From Candidatus Caldarchaeum subterraneum (lineage in GTDB: Archaea > Thermoproteota > Nitrososphaeria_A > Caldarchaeales > Caldarchaeaceae): DNA of 64,000 nucleotides. Numbering within the stretch: position 1 is the first letter of the stretch; every line of letters begins with the position of its first letter. The stretch is from assembly GCA_000270325.1 (NCBI GenBank), contig BA000048.1:826800-890799 (forward strand), written 5' to 3'. Position numbers and translations under genes: made by a program. The notes below the pieces were generated by a model. That model did not search any database, was not told where the DNA came from, and was given only the letters and a program-made list of their open reading frames with translations. Positions 43,500 to 50,499 of the stretch are shown in pieces.

Positions 43500-43732
43500 A
43501 AGCTTTTCCCTTACTGTTTTTCATTCTCTTCGCGGCGATGCTCATTCTACCCTTTGCACTGGTCTACGCCGTGGGTGATGGTGCCCAGTTCAGGGGAATC
43601 GGGGTTTTCTTCATCGGCCCCATACCCATAATCCTCGACATCACGGACCCACGCAGCCTCTACACACTGCTAATACCCGTTCTGCTCATCTTCATCCTCC
43701 TGTTTCTCTCCAGGGCGGTTAAGCGTTCCTAG
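43496..43732 (+). CDS. DUF131/TIGR00304-like small membrane protein, copy 2
   Basis: A 78-residue paralogue of the preceding gene: two transmembrane helices around GVFFIGPIPIILD. Start GTG 43496 overlaps the first gene's stop (GTGA). The tandem arrangement suggests a heterodimer in the membrane (inference). Its 3' end overlaps the convergent TrmB-like gene by 4 nt. Confidence 0.66.
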   Translation: MKAFPLLFFILFAAMLILPFALVYAVGDGAQFRGIGVFFIGPIPIILDITDPRSLYTLLIPVLLIFILLFLSRAVKRS

Positions 43733-44520
43733 TTCTTTGATTGACGGGGCTTGAATGGTGTGCTTTCTCTCCAGAGGTATTCGAAATAGTTTTTCGCAAA
43801 CTTCGCCAAGCCGATGTGGTCGGACCATATGGCTATCATCGATTCATCGTCTTCGGCGAAGACGATTACGACCTCTCTGTTGTCGGAGATGATGCCTCCT
43901 CCGAACATCTGCTCTCTAACCCTCACCTCAGCCACCTCAGCCAAAACCTTGAGAAGAGACGGGTTAACGTTGTTTGATGCCATGACCTGCACTTTTCCGT
44001 CACGGGCCCTGACTGAGAGGATTAGTTTGCGCAGGTTCTCCGCTGTTTCCCTGCTAAGTGTTGGGGCTGCGACAAGCAGCTCATTTTCACAACGCAGCAC
44101 CACTTCACGTATTTTCTCGGCTATGCTTTCGCTGCCTCTCAGTATCCAGATGTCGGGCTTCTCCCTTACACCGCGTTTCTCATAAACAGGCATAAGCTCG
44201 CGGACAACAGTCTCAGAGAGCTGCCTCATGTTTTTCTCGATTTTTTTGACGAGGTTTTCGACGGCTGTGTCGGGTGACTTCGGAACATAGCGGGCCGGCC
44301 TACCTGACTGGGTCACTATGAATCCCTTCTCCTCCAGCGAGCCCAGAACCTCGTAGATTTTTGAGTAGGGTATCATCTTGAGGTCGCTTATCTCGCTCGC
44401 GGTCATAGGACCGTGTTCGACCAAGGCTATGTAAGCCCTGACCTCGTAATCCGTCAGCCCAAGGTCCTGTAGAGAGCGTCTAACTTTTTCGCTTACCGAA
44501 AAGCCTGGCTCATCGGACAT
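43729..44520 (-). CDS. TrmB-family transcriptional regulator
   Basis: A regulator of about 263 residues of the archaeal TrmB family. The N-terminal winged helix contains LGLTDYEVRAYIALVEHGPM near residue 20 and MIPYSKIYEVLGSLEEKGFI; a coiled linker (VENLVKKIEKNMRQLSETV) leads to a C-terminal PLD-like sensor domain (WILRGSESIAEKIREVVLRC). TrmB relatives sense sugars; no sugar transporter is adjacent. It starts inside the end of the queT-like gene (11-nt overlap), so the two are co-transcribed and the regulator may control that transporter. Confidence 0.86.
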   Translation of the reverse strand: MSDEPGFSVSEKVRRSLQDLGLTDYEVRAYIALVEHGPMTASEISDLKMIPYSKIYEVLGSLEEKGFIVTQSGRPARYVPKSPDTAVENLVKKIEKNMRQLSETVVRELMPVYEKRGVREKPDIWILRGSESIAEKIREVVLRCENELLVAAPTLSRETAENLRKLILSVRARDGKVQVMASNNVNPSLLKVLAEVAEVRVREQMFGGGIISDNREVVIVFAEDDESMIAIWSDHIGLAKFAKNYFEYLWRESTPFKPRQSKN

Positions 44521-45037
44521 ATCGGGCCTCAGCCGCGAGATACCTTGCAACCGCTTTTGTCAAGGGGTAGCCGATGACTATGATGCTGATAACCGAGCCG
44601 CCTAACACGCCGAGCCATGAGAAGACAATCCCCGGCACAACCACCCCCAGCACAGGTGTGGGAGGCACACCGATCAACACGTAGAGGTAGGAGCCTACGA
44701 TGAATGTGACCACAAGGGTTTGGAAAACAGCGACAAACATCCAAGAGCCTCGGAAGACAAAGTTGCGGGCCATTTTCCAGCCAACATAGGTCGCGACAAG
44801 GTTTGTTAACGTGCCTCCGAGAAGGTCTAGGGGGCCGAAGGGGCTGAACAGGTTGGCGATGAACGTGCCCACGGTGACACCGACGACGGCGGGCATCCCG
44901 AAAACGATGGCTAAAGGAAGAAGCGCGTCGGAAACTCTCACCTGAATAATCTCGAAGCTAATTCCAGGCAGAGCTATTACACCCGCGGCATAGAGGCCCG
45001 CGAAAACAATAGCGGCCGCCAAATCCCTCGACTTCAT
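44510..45037 (-). CDS. queT: QueT-family ECF S-component-like transporter
   Basis: A 175-residue membrane protein with five to six helices. FEIIQVRVSDALLPLAIVFG and GTFIANLFSPFGPLDLLGGT closely follow the QueT family, proposed to import queuosine precursors; in archaea this would serve archaeosine or related 7-deazaguanine salvage (inference). ATG 45037 is chosen from a TATA box 27 nt upstream. The TrmB-like regulator follows with overlap. Confidence 0.82.
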   Translation of the reverse strand: MKSRDLAAAIVFAGLYAAGVIALPGISFEIIQVRVSDALLPLAIVFGMPAVVGVTVGTFIANLFSPFGPLDLLGGTLTNLVATYVGWKMARNFVFRGSWMFVAVFQTLVVTFIVGSYLYVLIGVPPTPVLGVVVPGIVFSWLGVLGGSVISIIVIGYPLTKAVARYLAAEARYVR

Positions 45038-45060
45038 GCCCCATCTACGACACACTTAGG

Positions 45061-45087: not shown

Positions 45088-46434
45088 TTAAAGCCTATAC
45101 CAGGTTCCGGAGACTTTCACATCCTTCATCGTAAACACGCGAACCATTCTGCTCAGCCGGCCGTTTTCCTCCTTCAGCACCGTCTCCACAACCCCGTCCA
45201 CGCTATCCATGACCATGGCGGTGACGTTCTGTGGATACGCCAAGTTGTTGTAGGCAACCCACAAGCTCACACCAGCGGCCTTTGACTTGGCCACGAGAAG
45301 GTTAAGCAGCTTCAACCCTGCTTCAACACCGTGGCTCTCCATCACCGGCGTAATAGAGTCGAGGATGAACCACTTGCGGGCGGTGGCCAATCTGGACAAT
45401 ACGCGTGTGAAGGCTATGTTGATTTCATTAGGCTCCGATGCAACATAGTGTCGGGTGTTATCTGAAGACGGGATAGATGTTAATAGAACCAATTTCCCCT
45501 CCTGCTCTAACCGTTCAACATCGCATCCTAGGCCAGCCAGCCTGCTGCGCAGCTCCTCCACCGTGTCATGTAGCGAGAGCATCACAACACCATCTCCCGC
45601 AGAAAGACGATGAGCAGAAAGACGCGCCAACAAAGTCGACCTACCACTCCCACTCGGGCCGACAACCGCCACAACACTCGGATACATTAAACCAATTTCT
45701 CTGTCGATGCCCTCTACACCAGTCAAAACAGTTTCACTCTCACCCCTTTTCCTTAAACCAGATACTCGTGTAACACCATAAACCCCAGCAACCGTTGCAA
45801 CAAGACTCATAATCGTCTCAACCGCAAAATATGCATCGTAAACCCCTTGGCTGAACAGCCCAGACAATACACCGCCCATAACATACAGAAACAAGACGCC
45901 GACCCCCGCATACATGAGCCCCGCCGCCCACAGAGGCACCGCGCTCCACATCCCCCAACCAAGCTCAAAACGCCCAACAACACCATAGACATATGAGCTA
46001 AGCATCCAGAACAAGAAACCCGCCACCAACAAATGATACGACAAAAGCACGTCAACCACAGTCCCCGACCTGAAAAACACCAAAGCAGCAACAAGAGGAA
46101 TAGCAAAGAGAACCAACACGCTCACCGATGCAAGGCGAAAGTAAACCTTACCCACCAGAGAAAAAACATGAAGCACAAAAGCAAGGGTCACAGCCACAAC
46201 AACCGAACCAACCAGGCTTGAGAGATAGATGAACACCTCAAAACCAACGCCCAAAAAATACACCACCACAGCCAACAAAAACAAAATAAACCACACGTAA
46301 ACAAACCGAGCAGAGTAAACCAGCAGACCACCAACATTAAACAGCCTACGAATACCCTCTACAGCAACCAACAATCCAAGCAGCACGATGAGCCGCGAGA
46401 GAAAAGGAAAAAGAACGTCCACAACCTCAACCAT
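45088..46434 (-). CDS. Membrane protein fused to KaiC/RecA-like ATPase domain with altered Walker A
   Basis: A 448-residue protein of unusual architecture. Residues about 1-220 hold six to seven hydrophobic helices with no recognised family. Residues about 230-448 form a KaiC/RecA-like domain: TGVEGIDREIGLM, a P-loop GPSGSGRST at 259-267, ITPVMES after the Walker B strand KWFILDS, and MVMDSVDGVVE. The P-loop Lys (GK[ST]) is replaced by Arg, encoded by AGG, so ATP hydrolysis may be weak or absent. A membrane-anchored sensor or signalling role is possible, but nothing in the neighbourhood (TrmB, QueT, HEPN/MNT) fixes it. A GTG at 46422 is an alternative start. Confidence 0.75.
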   Translation of the reverse strand: MVEVVDVLFPFLSRLIVLLGLLVAVEGIRRLFNVGGLLVYSARFVYVWFILFLLAVVVYFLGVGFEVFIYLSSLVGSVVVAVTLAFVLHVFSLVGKVYFRLASVSVLVLFAIPLVAALVFFRSGTVVDVLLSYHLLVAGFLFWMLSSYVYGVVGRFELGWGMWSAVPLWAAGLMYAGVGVLFLYVMGGVLSGLFSQGVYDAYFAVETIMSLVATVAGVYGVTRVSGLRKRGESETVLTGVEGIDREIGLMYPSVVAVVGPSGSGRSTLLARLSAHRLSAGDGVVMLSLHDTVEELRSRLAGLGCDVERLEQEGKLVLLTSIPSSDNTRHYVASEPNEINIAFTRVLSRLATARKWFILDSITPVMESHGVEAGLKLLNLLVAKSKAAGVSLWVAYNNLAYPQNVTAMVMDSVDGVVETVLKEENGRLSRMVRVFTMKDVKVSGTWYRL

Positions 46435-46535
46435 ACAATCCCATGATATATGTCTTCAAAAGGCATATCAGCCCAAATGCAGCAAAACATCCACACAAAA
46501 CATATCCACACACCACGGCCAGCAAACATAATTAC

Positions 46536-46961
46536 ATGGCTAAACACATACACACTGTGCATAGAGCCGAGGCCGAAAAGCTGCTCAGCAGGTCCAGAAA
46601 GTTCGCCGACGCCGCGGAATTCCATTTCATGAGAGGCGACTACGACCTCAGCGTCTTCAACATCGAACAGGCGCTCCAGCTTTTCCTAAAAGCCATGCTT
46701 CTAAAAAATGGAGTAGACTTTCCAAAAACCCACAGCGTCGGAAAACTATTCATCATATTAGGCGAGTGTCTGGGCAAAGAACAGCAGTTCACAGAATTCT
46801 CGGAGAAACATGCACTGGAGTTCGCCAGCCTCGAGGACGCATACATATCCTCGCGATACTTTCCCCGCGAGTTCACCAGAAAAGAGGCTGAGAGCCTAGG
46901 CACCTTTTTCTCCGAGGTGAAGAAGTTTGTCCAACAACATACTGGTGAGGGAGGCGCGTAG
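46536..46961 (+). CDS. HEPN-domain protein of a HEPN/MNT module
   Basis: A 141-residue four-helix HEPN protein. AEAEKLLSRSRKFADAAEFH opens the first helix, DYDLSVFNIEQALQLFLKAML is the signature second helix, and YISSRYFPREFTRKEA carries the aromatic SRY motif found in this HEPN subgroup. It overlaps the following nucleotidyltransferase by 35 nt, the classic HEPN/MNT toxin-antitoxin-like pair. A canonical RxxxxH ribonuclease motif is not obvious, so it might be an inactive variant. ATG 46536 is preferred over 46443. Confidence 0.82.
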   Translation: MAKHIHTVHRAEAEKLLSRSRKFADAAEFHFMRGDYDLSVFNIEQALQLFLKAMLLKNGVDFPKTHSVGKLFIILGECLGKEQQFTEFSEKHALEFASLEDAYISSRYFPREFTRKEAESLGTFFSEVKKFVQQHTGEGGA

Positions 46962-47247
46962 GAGACGGGAGATATTCCAAAACCTCCAGCACTATCTCCA
47001 GAAGATCAAGGAGGCTGTGAAGCAGCTGGATAACGAGGCTCGGCTGTATCTTTTCGGCTCAGCGGCCCGCGGAGACCACATATACGCAAGCGACGTCGAC
47101 ATCCTCATCGTCACGAAACTCCACCCAGCCCACGTCATAGCATATCTGAGGGAACTGGGGTTTGACGAGCCTTTCGAGTTCCATGTGGCATGGGGCGAAA
47201 GAGCGGAAATGTATCTGAAATCGGCGGACAAAATCGTGGAGCTTTAG
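46927..47247 (+). CDS. MNT-type minimal nucleotidyltransferase
   Basis: A 106-residue nucleotidyltransferase of the pol-beta superfamily. The motif YLFGSAARGDHIYASDVDIL (GS...DxD) near residue 41 contains the metal-binding Asp pair; a third acidic position may be in FEFHVAW. MNT partners of HEPN toxins can AMPylate or otherwise neutralise them in characterised systems. The overlap with the HEPN gene supports a functional pair. Confidence 0.85.
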   Translation: MSNNILVREARRRREIFQNLQHYLQKIKEAVKQLDNEARLYLFGSAARGDHIYASDVDILIVTKLHPAHVIAYLRELGFDEPFEFHVAWGERAEMYLKSADKIVEL

Positions 47248-47334
47248 CCCCAGGTAATACGGCTTCTTTCTACCCTTTCACCCTAAGTATCGTGAGGAAA
47301 CGGTTAAAAGCTCAGCCGAAACCTAGCCGCCGGT

Positions 47335-49029
47335 ATGGCGGTAATCCTCGAAACAACCAACCTCGAAACCAAACGCAAGCTCGTAACCAAGACAAGAAGC
47401 ATCTGCCCCGAATGCAACAGAATACTCGAAGCAGACGTCGTCGAAGAAGAAGGCAAGATAAAGATCTACAAGACATGTCCCAAGCACGGCGAGTTCGACG
47501 ACCTCTACTTCGGCGACGCCGAGATGTACTACCGATTCGCAAGATGGCTCCACGACGGAAAAGGAACAGGAAACCCCAACGTCGAGATGCCACGCTGCGC
47601 ATGCCCAGCCAACTGCGGACTCTGCAGCAGCCACCTAAGCCACACAGGCCTCTCCAACCTCGTCATCACCAACAGATGCGACCTCCACTGCTGGTACTGC
47701 TTCTTCTACGCAGAAAAAGCAGGATACATCTACGAGCCGACACTTGACCAGATACGTGAAATGGTCAAGCAGCTCAAAGCCGAGCGCCCCGTTCCAGGCA
47801 ACTCAGTCCAGATAACGGGCGGAGAACCATGCCTAAGAGACGACCTGCCAGAAATAATCCGAATCCTCAAGGAAGAAGGCGTTGACCACATCCAGCTCAA
47901 CACAAACGGCATACGTCTCGCCCACGACTTCGAGTTCTTCAAACGAGTCAAGGAAGCAGGCGTAAGCAACCTATACATGAGCTTCGACGGCGTCACACCC
48001 AGGACAAACCCGAAAAACCACTGGGAAGTGCCCAAGACACTGGAAAACGCACGCAAACTCGGAGTCGGTGTTGTCCTCGTCCCAACAGTCATCAAATCAG
48101 TCAACGACCACGAGCTCGGCGACATAATCCGCTTCGGCTTCCAAAACATCGACGTCGTAAGAGCCGTCAACTTCCAGCCCGTAAGCCTCACGGGCAGAAT
48201 GCCCAAAAAAGAGCGTGAAAAATACAGAATCACAATCCCAGACTGCATACACCGGATAGAGGAGCAGACAAACGGCGAAATCCCCAGCGACGCATGGTTC
48301 CCCGTACCAGCCTGCACACCCCTCACAAACTTCATCGAAGCACTAACAAGAAGAGCACAATACGAGCTCAGCATACACTTCGCATGCGGCGCAGGAACCT
48401 ACGTCTTCAAAGACCACGACAAACTCATCCCCATAACAAACTTCGTAGACGTCGAAGGCCTCATCAAATACCTCCAAGACAAAACAGAAGAAATAGAAGC
48501 AGGCAAAAACAGATTCTACATAGCACTCAAAGTCCTCGCCAACATCAACAAATACATCAACACAAACAAACAACCAACAGGACTAAACCTCAAACACATG
48601 CTATACAACATAATAATCAAACACGACTACCACAGCGTAGGCGACTGGCACCGCAGATCACTCTTCCTAGGAATGATGCACTTCCAAGATAAGTATAACC
48701 ATGACGAGGAACGGCTCAGAAGATGCGACATACACTACCTGACACCCGACATGAGAATCATTCCATTCTGCGCCTTCAACGTTATCCCCGAATGGTACAG
48801 AGACAGAATCCAGGCACAATACGGCATCCCGATAGCCGAATGGGAGAAGAGGACAGGCCGAAAGCTCAAGGACGACTTCTACAAACGCCAGCTCCCCTCC
48901 AAACAACAGACAGTGCCCATGGCCTCGACGAAAACAGCAGGCTTCGGCGGACTGAAAGAGATTCCGGTCATCCAAGGCGGCTCAGGAAAAGAAGAAAACT
49001 GCGGCCCCAGCTGCGGCTGCAGCCACTAA
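47335..49029 (+). CDS. tes: Tetraether lipid synthase-like radical SAM protein (Tes)
   Basis: A 564-residue radical SAM protein strongly resembling MJ0619/Tes, which joins archaeol chains to form GDGT membrane-spanning lipids. N-terminal cysteines ICPECNRIL and TCPKHG form the family's extra metal-binding module, CACPANCGLC supplies another cluster, and the radical SAM motif is CDLHCWYC at residues 115-122. QITGGEPCLRDD and QLNTNGIRLA are SAM-binding segments. A Cys-rich C-terminus (CGPSCGCSH) is present. An MJ0619-like role is well supported by these motifs; related family members can act on other substrates. Confidence 0.87.
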   Translation: MAVILETTNLETKRKLVTKTRSICPECNRILEADVVEEEGKIKIYKTCPKHGEFDDLYFGDAEMYYRFARWLHDGKGTGNPNVEMPRCACPANCGLCSSHLSHTGLSNLVITNRCDLHCWYCFFYAEKAGYIYEPTLDQIREMVKQLKAERPVPGNSVQITGGEPCLRDDLPEIIRILKEEGVDHIQLNTNGIRLAHDFEFFKRVKEAGVSNLYMSFDGVTPRTNPKNHWEVPKTLENARKLGVGVVLVPTVIKSVNDHELGDIIRFGFQNIDVVRAVNFQPVSLTGRMPKKEREKYRITIPDCIHRIEEQTNGEIPSDAWFPVPACTPLTNFIEALTRRAQYELSIHFACGAGTYVFKDHDKLIPITNFVDVEGLIKYLQDKTEEIEAGKNRFYIALKVLANINKYINTNKQPTGLNLKHMLYNIIIKHDYHSVGDWHRRSLFLGMMHFQDKYNHDEERLRRCDIHYLTPDMRIIPFCAFNVIPEWYRDRIQAQYGIPIAEWEKRTGRKLKDDFYKRQLPSKQQTVPMASTKTAGFGGLKEIPVIQGGSGKEENCGPSCGCSH

Positions 49030-49175: not shown

Positions 49176-50499
49176 CTATAGAATTTCTGGCCAGAGCTCT
49201 TGAATTAAATTGTAAACTGATGATACCCCTTTGCATTTTACGTCGAATCCGAACAAATCAAGTAATGAGGCCATATCCTTAGCTATCTCTTCTGGAACGT
49301 ATAATGTATCGAATTTCTTTAATTCAGTTGTTAATGTGTCGGACAGTATGTTGGGTACAGGATAAAATCCACGTAGTTGCACCGCTTCATCGTCCTCCTC
49401 TTCATCAATTTCTAATATTTCTTTTAAGTGTGCCGCTTCTTTAAAGGCTGAAGCAGATCTTACCGCGCCTTGAAGGTCGACCTCACCGTAAAAGCAACAA
49501 CCCTCGTTGATGCCTTTCTGGACATATGAAGACAGCAATGCTATCACTACAGCTAGATCAAATCCGTGGTCATATTGTTTGTGAGGAGATGAGCGCATAA
49601 GACAATCTATGTTGTAGGTGAGATTAGATACGTCGATGTTAGGAATGTTACGGATTGTGTCGATTAATTGTTCTATCCTTTGCCGGGGAAGATAAGGTGC
49701 CCGAACTCCACCGTGTTCACCCCATTTAGGTATTTCTACTCTAGCCTGTATTTCGGCAAATGCTCCTGTTGCGAAGCTGATGCCATTGGCTTTACCTACT
49801 ATGCCTTCTGCGTGTCGTGATGGGTATAGACCATTATTACCTATCTCTAGCACAAAAGGATCTAGCTTCGCTGGTCCAAAGCGGTTTTTTGGGACAAACA
49901 GAGGACGGAGTTTAAAGGCTCGTCGGAATTGAAGGACACAGTCAACATGATGTTCTAAGTCTTTTGGGCCAGCTATATCCCCTTTTTTAGTGACGTGAGA
50001 CGTCAGAAAAGTGGTTATTTTCCGGTTCTTTAAAGCTGTTGTGAATTTGTTTACTCTTGTATACATTTTTCTCGCGGCAGGCGACACCCCTCCTGCCTGA
50101 ACCGAATCTATAACCACCAATTTAATGCCAGAATACTCAGCAACACGTTTCTCACCTAGTATTATCCTAGACCATATTTCAAGTTCTCTTAAGTCGGGCA
50201 GAGGTTCTATGAGGAGATTTTCGCTCAGTGGCTCACTTATTCCCTCATTATACAATCTTTGAATAATAGACTTTAGATCTGATGGTGATTGTTCCGAAGT
50301 TAGATACAAAACTTTTCTTCCCTGTTCTGCGATATCACAGGCTAATTGTAATGCTAGCGTTGTTTTGCCTATTCCAGGTTCCCCCGCTAGCAGATATATG
50401 CCGCCCTCAACTATCTCAACGATTTTTTTGAAACCACCTGAGTTGATGAAGGTCTATCTGCCTAAGGTTAGACTCTCCAATATCACTGAGTCTAGGCAT
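49176..50499 (-). CDS. radA: RadA/Sms-like ATPase with Lon-type C-terminus; 5' frame disrupted
   Basis: A homologue of bacterial RadA/Sms, a branch-migration motor. Walker A is GEPGIGKTT, Walker B is IKLVVIDSVQ, the KNRFG motif occurs in VPKNRFGPA, and a Lon-like C-terminal domain shows DHGFDLAVVIALLSSY and FYGEVDLQGAVRSA. The zinc finger of bacterial RadA is missing. The Walker A frame is open only back to a TAG at about 50459 and has no start codon there. ATG 50499 (MPRLSDIGESNLRQI), with a TATA box about 27 nt upstream, is in a different frame, so a one-base indel or frameshift near 50455 is implied. Confidence 0.75.

Follow-up and report, generated by a model that had tools for sequence, protein, structure and literature searches.

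Inactivated KaiC domains are a known theme among archaeal signalling modules, as summarized in PMC5847659, which cites Makarova et al. 2017. In the iKaiC proteins (MEDS, PF14417; DUF835, PF05763) and in DUF7504 (PF24336), a degenerate KaiC/RecA domain is fused to sensory or regulatory parts. The KaiC homologue ArlH (FlaH), a soluble single-domain protein, acts through partners and binds ATP with no hydrolysis (PMC8978795). The same behaviour towards ATP was reported for the K133R form of human RAD51, a protein of RecA fold (PMC10681713, PMC3155514). In the CI domain of KaiC, E77 is the general base and E78 the Mg ligand, and the phosphates are held by K52 together with K224 and R226 of the neighbouring subunit (PMC2777353).

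The window (the whole stretch of 64,000 nucleotides that was analysed) comes from the thermophilic archaeon Candidatus Caldarchaeum subterraneum (G000), whose genome consists of one contig (1,680,938 bases). A preliminary description of the window had reported a gene for hydrophobic membrane helices joined to a KaiC-like domain, with Arg instead of Lys in the P-loop. Both features were recovered at this locus: the open reading frame, seven predicted helices, a PF06745 match and the substituted P-loop are listed in Table 1. The protein, called 7TM-KaiC below, has the degenerate KaiC domain in common with the iKaiC and DUF7504 proteins and differs from them in its fusion to seven membrane helices. 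It has in common with cyanobacterial and archaeal KaiC (PF06745) the fold, the position of the P-loop and the Walker B Asp-Ser, but it has a single KaiC domain, a membrane fusion and replacements at all five ATPase residues. On our best reading, it would be a new form of the 'inactivated KaiC' theme, in which a receptor-like 7TM part has as its output domain a KaiC that no longer hydrolyses ATP. No paper on a 7TM fusion with complete loss of the KaiC ATPase residues was found in the literature that was searched.

Table 1. Position in the window of the 7TM-KaiC gene, its parts and the neighbouring genes
Feature	Position	Strand	Evidence or remark
7TM-KaiC gene, 448 aa	45088..46434	(-)	ORF; full-length homologues in G003, G002 and G005
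Seven membrane helices, residues 2-226, predicted N-out/C-in	45757..46431	(-)	AlphaFold2, positive-inside count, hydropathy
KaiC/RecA-fold domain, residues 234-448	45091..45735	(-)	PF06745 and Foldseek
P-loop GPSGSGRST, residues 259-267	45634..45660	(-)	Arg265 where Lys is expected
Arg265 codon AGG	45640-45642	(-)	Arg also in G003 and G002; G005 has Lys
His289-Asp290, at position of KaiC catalytic pair E77-E78	45565..45570	(-)	phmmer alignment to KaiC, domain alignment
Walker B Asp359-Ser360	45355..45360	(-)	Alignment; invariant across the 7TM family
Thr435-Met-Lys437, at position of KaiC trans-acting K224-x-R226	45124..45132	(-)	Domain alignment
QueT-like transporter subunit, directly downstream	44510..45055	(-)	PF06177, E 2.1e-29
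TrmB-type regulator, downstream of QueT	43729..44550	(-)	PF01978, E 1.9e-24
Divergent HEPN/MNT pair	46443..47247	(+)	

The KaiC half belongs to the KaiC family by both sequence and fold. PF06745 matched residues 237-443 (E 7.5e-19) with 68.5 bits for a curated cut-off of 26.6. In the AlphaFold2 model, the RecA/KaiC domain was mostly above pLDDT 90. Foldseek searches with the model of this half gave target TM-scores of about 0.8 and E-values of about 1e-11 with KaiC-like structures; the top matches were SSO2452 (2w0m, E 1.8e-11), PH0284, KaiC and FlaH (4yds, E 1.1e-9). The more specific models did not apply. The protein scored below the cut-offs of DUF7504 (18.7 vs 27 bits) and of the NCBIfam ArlH model (19 vs 215 bits), and it was matched by neither DUF835 nor MEDS, so that DUF835 membership was discarded. 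DUF7504 and MEDS models do match relatives in the clade of its KaiC domain. As in iKaiC proteins, catalytic residues are lost and the domain is fused to a further part, here a membrane half that is presumably sensory.

For the membrane half, AlphaFold2 (25-row alignment) modelled seven long helices at residues 2-32, 37-60, 65-94, 96-123, 129-157, 166-191 and 196-226, and the hydropathy scan also gave seven segments. The pLDDT of this half in the model of the whole protein was 45-76, and the helix count is therefore better supported than the helix packing. The N-out/C-in topology places nine loop Lys or Arg residues on the inner side for one on the outer side, which predicts a cytoplasmic KaiC domain. 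The predicted helix number and orientation are those of a 7TM receptor. The preliminary description knew of no family with this exact architecture, and this held in the searched libraries: Pfam had no match to the first 230 residues and NCBIfam no model for the membrane half. A model of the helices alone was poor (pLDDT 51) and Foldseek found nothing better than E 1.8 for the bundle; since a fold match was absent, no ligand is suggested.

Only four members of the 7TM family are known, from four of the eight genomes of the taxonomic family. The three relatives of the window protein are from a sister species (G003, 84% identity), a divergent congener (G002, 24% overall and 35% over the KaiC half) and archaeon HR01, which belongs to another genus (G005, 26%, same architecture). 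A search of the contigs of the genomes returned the same three. Whole-protein and membrane-half profiles, applied to the order (44 genomes) and to 300-398 phylum genomes, found no further full-length relatives; the membrane-half profile, run across 300 phylum genomes, gave the same four proteins only.

The P-loop reads GPSGSGRST in G003 and GSAGSGRTT in G002; it is normal in G005 (GGSGSGKST). The homologues are thus not all of the GKT type, and the Arg found in G003 and G002 rules out a sequencing error. The Arg codons are AGG in the window, AGG in G003 and CGA in G002; Arg was therefore retained through synonymous turnover. Lys was probably ancestral at this position. Outside this family, a P-loop Arg was seen in L072 (GDPGSGRE) and L075 (GDPGSNRT), two KaiC proteins with a winged-helix-type N-terminus. 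On a tree computed with the P-loop columns excluded, three changes were required to explain the P-loop Arg. A single clade of the Arg rows was rejected by the AU test (p 0.0035), for which the Arg rows had been picked after viewing an earlier tree and in which the tree has long branches. From the sequences, we read the P-loop Arg as having arisen more than once, and do not insist on the number three.

The other catalytic positions are changed as well. At the positions of K52, E77, E78, K224 and R226, the domain alignment gave R265, H289, D290, T435 and K437 in the window protein, R, D, Q, W and T in G002, and K, D, Y, K and P in G005. None of the five KaiC residues is left in G000, G003 and G002, and two are left in G005; of 50 further KaiC domains, sampled by similarity to the query, 34 have four or five of them. 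Where an active KaiC ATPase/kinase has a P-loop Lys, a Glu pair and a trans-acting Lys-x-Arg, the window protein has R, H-D and T-x-K. All four 7TM members retain three glycines of the P-loop (G259, G262 and G264), the Ser/Thr that follows the Lys or Arg, and the Walker B Asp; Glu and Trp positions are also invariant. The proposal of a membrane-anchored pseudo-ATPase or ATP sensor, made in the preliminary description, gains support from this comparison, in which the glycines and the Walker B Asp persist although the catalytic residues are replaced. Between G000 and G003, dN/dS was 0.25 in the KaiC part of the gene, 0.68 in the membrane part and 0.05-0.11 in the neighbours QueT, TrmB and MNT. 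By this measure, purifying selection acts on the KaiC half. The rapid evolution of the membrane half might be that of a ligand sensor, or could reflect weak or relaxed constraint.

The wider clade of the KaiC domain is made up of degenerate, sensor-fused KaiC domains of Thermoproteota, largely sensor/membrane-KaiC fusions. On the tree without the P-loop columns, the four 7TM rows are monophyletic (100/98) and lie within a group that contains the winged-helix-type proteins (96/97). Relatives of the KaiC domain with other N-termini comprise a winged-helix-type group, whose assignment is weak (HVO_A0114, E 0.0024), an ectodomain-like group, mostly with 1-3 membrane segments, and the multi-helix protein L079. 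These uncharacterized winged-helix-type and ectodomain-TM-KaiC proteins (L072-L085, L122-L137), the nearest KaiC domains by the tree, have lost the Glu pair like the window protein. They differ from the 7TM family in their N-termini and because most of them adjoin a single-domain KaiC. Two sensor-fused KaiC domains (L134 and L135, both in G391) have Thr or Ser instead of the P-loop Lys (GESGSGTTT, SDSGAGSTT). At L005 (G051) and L082 (G079), a divergent pair of KaiC-like genes was observed; in one the P-loop is wholly destroyed (NDPESDAST), and in the other a normal P-loop (GPPGVGKS) precedes a further P-loop domain.

In 15 of 20 loci of the wider clade (L153-L170), which span eight family-level groups and are partly non-independent since several come from sister genomes, a single-domain KaiC gene directly adjoins the gene of a degenerate sensor-fused or winged-helix-type KaiC. 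The pairs are mostly convergent (tail-to-tail), with touching stops. Genomes of about 2 Mb contain up to seven KaiC-like matches, so abutting pairs should rarely arise by chance. The adjacent single-domain KaiCs cluster together, and the cluster includes a Caldarchaeum KaiC (C1:175830-176561) and its orthologues in G003, G002 and G005. This partner-type KaiC is thus found in all four genomes with a 7TM protein. The co-occurrence is not strict: G007 has a 58% identical KaiC and no 7TM protein. The P-loop of the Caldarchaeum KaiC is normal (GSPGSGKTT), and its catalytic pair reads D-E rather than E-E. In the 7TM family, no KaiC gene adjoins the 7TM-KaiC gene.

We favour, with moderate confidence, a membrane sensor of seven helices whose output domain, in the cytoplasm, is a KaiC-type pseudo-ATPase. 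The KaiC domain would most likely still bind nucleotide, given its glycine-rich loop, Ser266, the Walker B Asp and an Arg for the Lys. It would be unable to hydrolyse the nucleotide or to complete the active site of a neighbouring subunit, because the equivalents of E77, E78 and K224/R226 are all gone. Binding without turnover is plausible by analogy since RAD51 K133R and ArlH both bind ATP and do not hydrolyse it; the proposed action through partners is also that of ArlH. The domain would then serve as an interaction module dependent on the ATP state, and a stimulus sensed by the membrane half would alter its docking onto a partner. The likeliest partner may be the soluble Caldarchaeum KaiC described above, which keeps most catalytic residues and is of the type found beside related receptors in other Thermoproteota. 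By analogy with these pairs, we infer that the dead KaiC domain may work on this protein. A more general proposal is put forward only tentatively: a widespread, undescribed design in Thermoproteota would pair a sensor carrying a degenerate KaiC with a soluble KaiC ATPase in a mixed RecA-type assembly, the sensor controlling turnover. The sensor would be an ectodomain, a multi-helix membrane part or a winged-helix-type part, and the window protein would be one branch and an extreme case, having lost every catalytic residue and having its partner encoded elsewhere. A membrane protein with a dead KaiC, in a clade mostly located beside soluble KaiC genes, offers a concrete and testable route of input. 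The P-loop change from Lys to Arg, which recurs in nature, is also made experimentally in RAD51 to keep that protein bound to ATP, and 7TM-KaiC may therefore offer an evolved ATP-locked KaiC to set against the engineered ones.

The nucleotide pocket might also be empty, the KaiC domain being a purely structural scaffold for protein interaction on a membrane anchor. We consider this unlikely. P-loops are fully destroyed in some KaiC-like relatives (NDPESDAST, GESGSGTTT, SDSGAGSTT), and loss of binding therefore probably occurs in this protein group; all four members of the 7TM family, however, retain the three glycines, the Ser/Thr and the Walker B Asp, and the Lys was only changed to another basic residue. 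It appears less probable still that the domain is a slow but active ATPase or kinase, in which Arg265 would do the work of the Lys and His289/Asp290 would supply the general base. Related single-domain KaiCs often have D-E for E-E, which indicates that the first Glu can vary, and the related winged-helix-type KaiCs with a P-loop Arg keep K224. Against this, the window protein departs from KaiC at all five catalytic positions together, RAD51 K133R fails to hydrolyse ATP (PMC10681713), and E318D, the CII counterpart, renders KaiC arrhythmic (PMC2777353).

The pseudo-ATPase reading was also weighed against a decaying gene with no selected function. The dN/dS of the membrane half, the restriction to half of the family genomes and a gene neighbourhood conserved only as far as the sister species are in keeping with decay. 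Full-length open frames in four divergent genomes, the dN/dS of the KaiC half, an Arg retained through codon change and the invariant Asp-Ser, Glu and Trp positions argue against it, and on this sequence evidence decay is already disfavoured and appears improbable. The order 7TM-KaiC, QueT, TrmB is retained in G003, and QueT adjacency is absent in G002 and G005. An operon with QueT and TrmB was not relied on as a functional unit; among the relatives checked, only the sister species has it. By reading of the sequences, the neighbours are an RNase J-type protein and an MFS-type transporter in G002, and a hydantoinase-like enzyme and a MarC-like protein in G005. The coupling to the HEPN/MNT pair suggested in the preliminary description can be dismissed as highly improbable: the start codons are merely 8 bases apart in the window, but this proximity is not conserved, as most of HEPN is missing in G003, where the internal loss of about 337 bp leaves an in-frame stub beside an intact MNT and an intact 7TM-KaiC (L031:1420-1905 vs window 46420-47260), and the pair is absent beside the G002 and G005 homologues, whose neighbours are unrelated. 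Beyond the HEPN/MNT pair from 7TM-KaiC, the window encodes a tetraether lipid synthase Tes (47335-49029, (+) strand; NF045702, 731 bits). A RadA/Sms-like protein, of a mainly bacterial family, is encoded in this archaeon at 49176-50309 of the window ((-) strand; TIGR00416, E 1.2e-21, below the cut-off).
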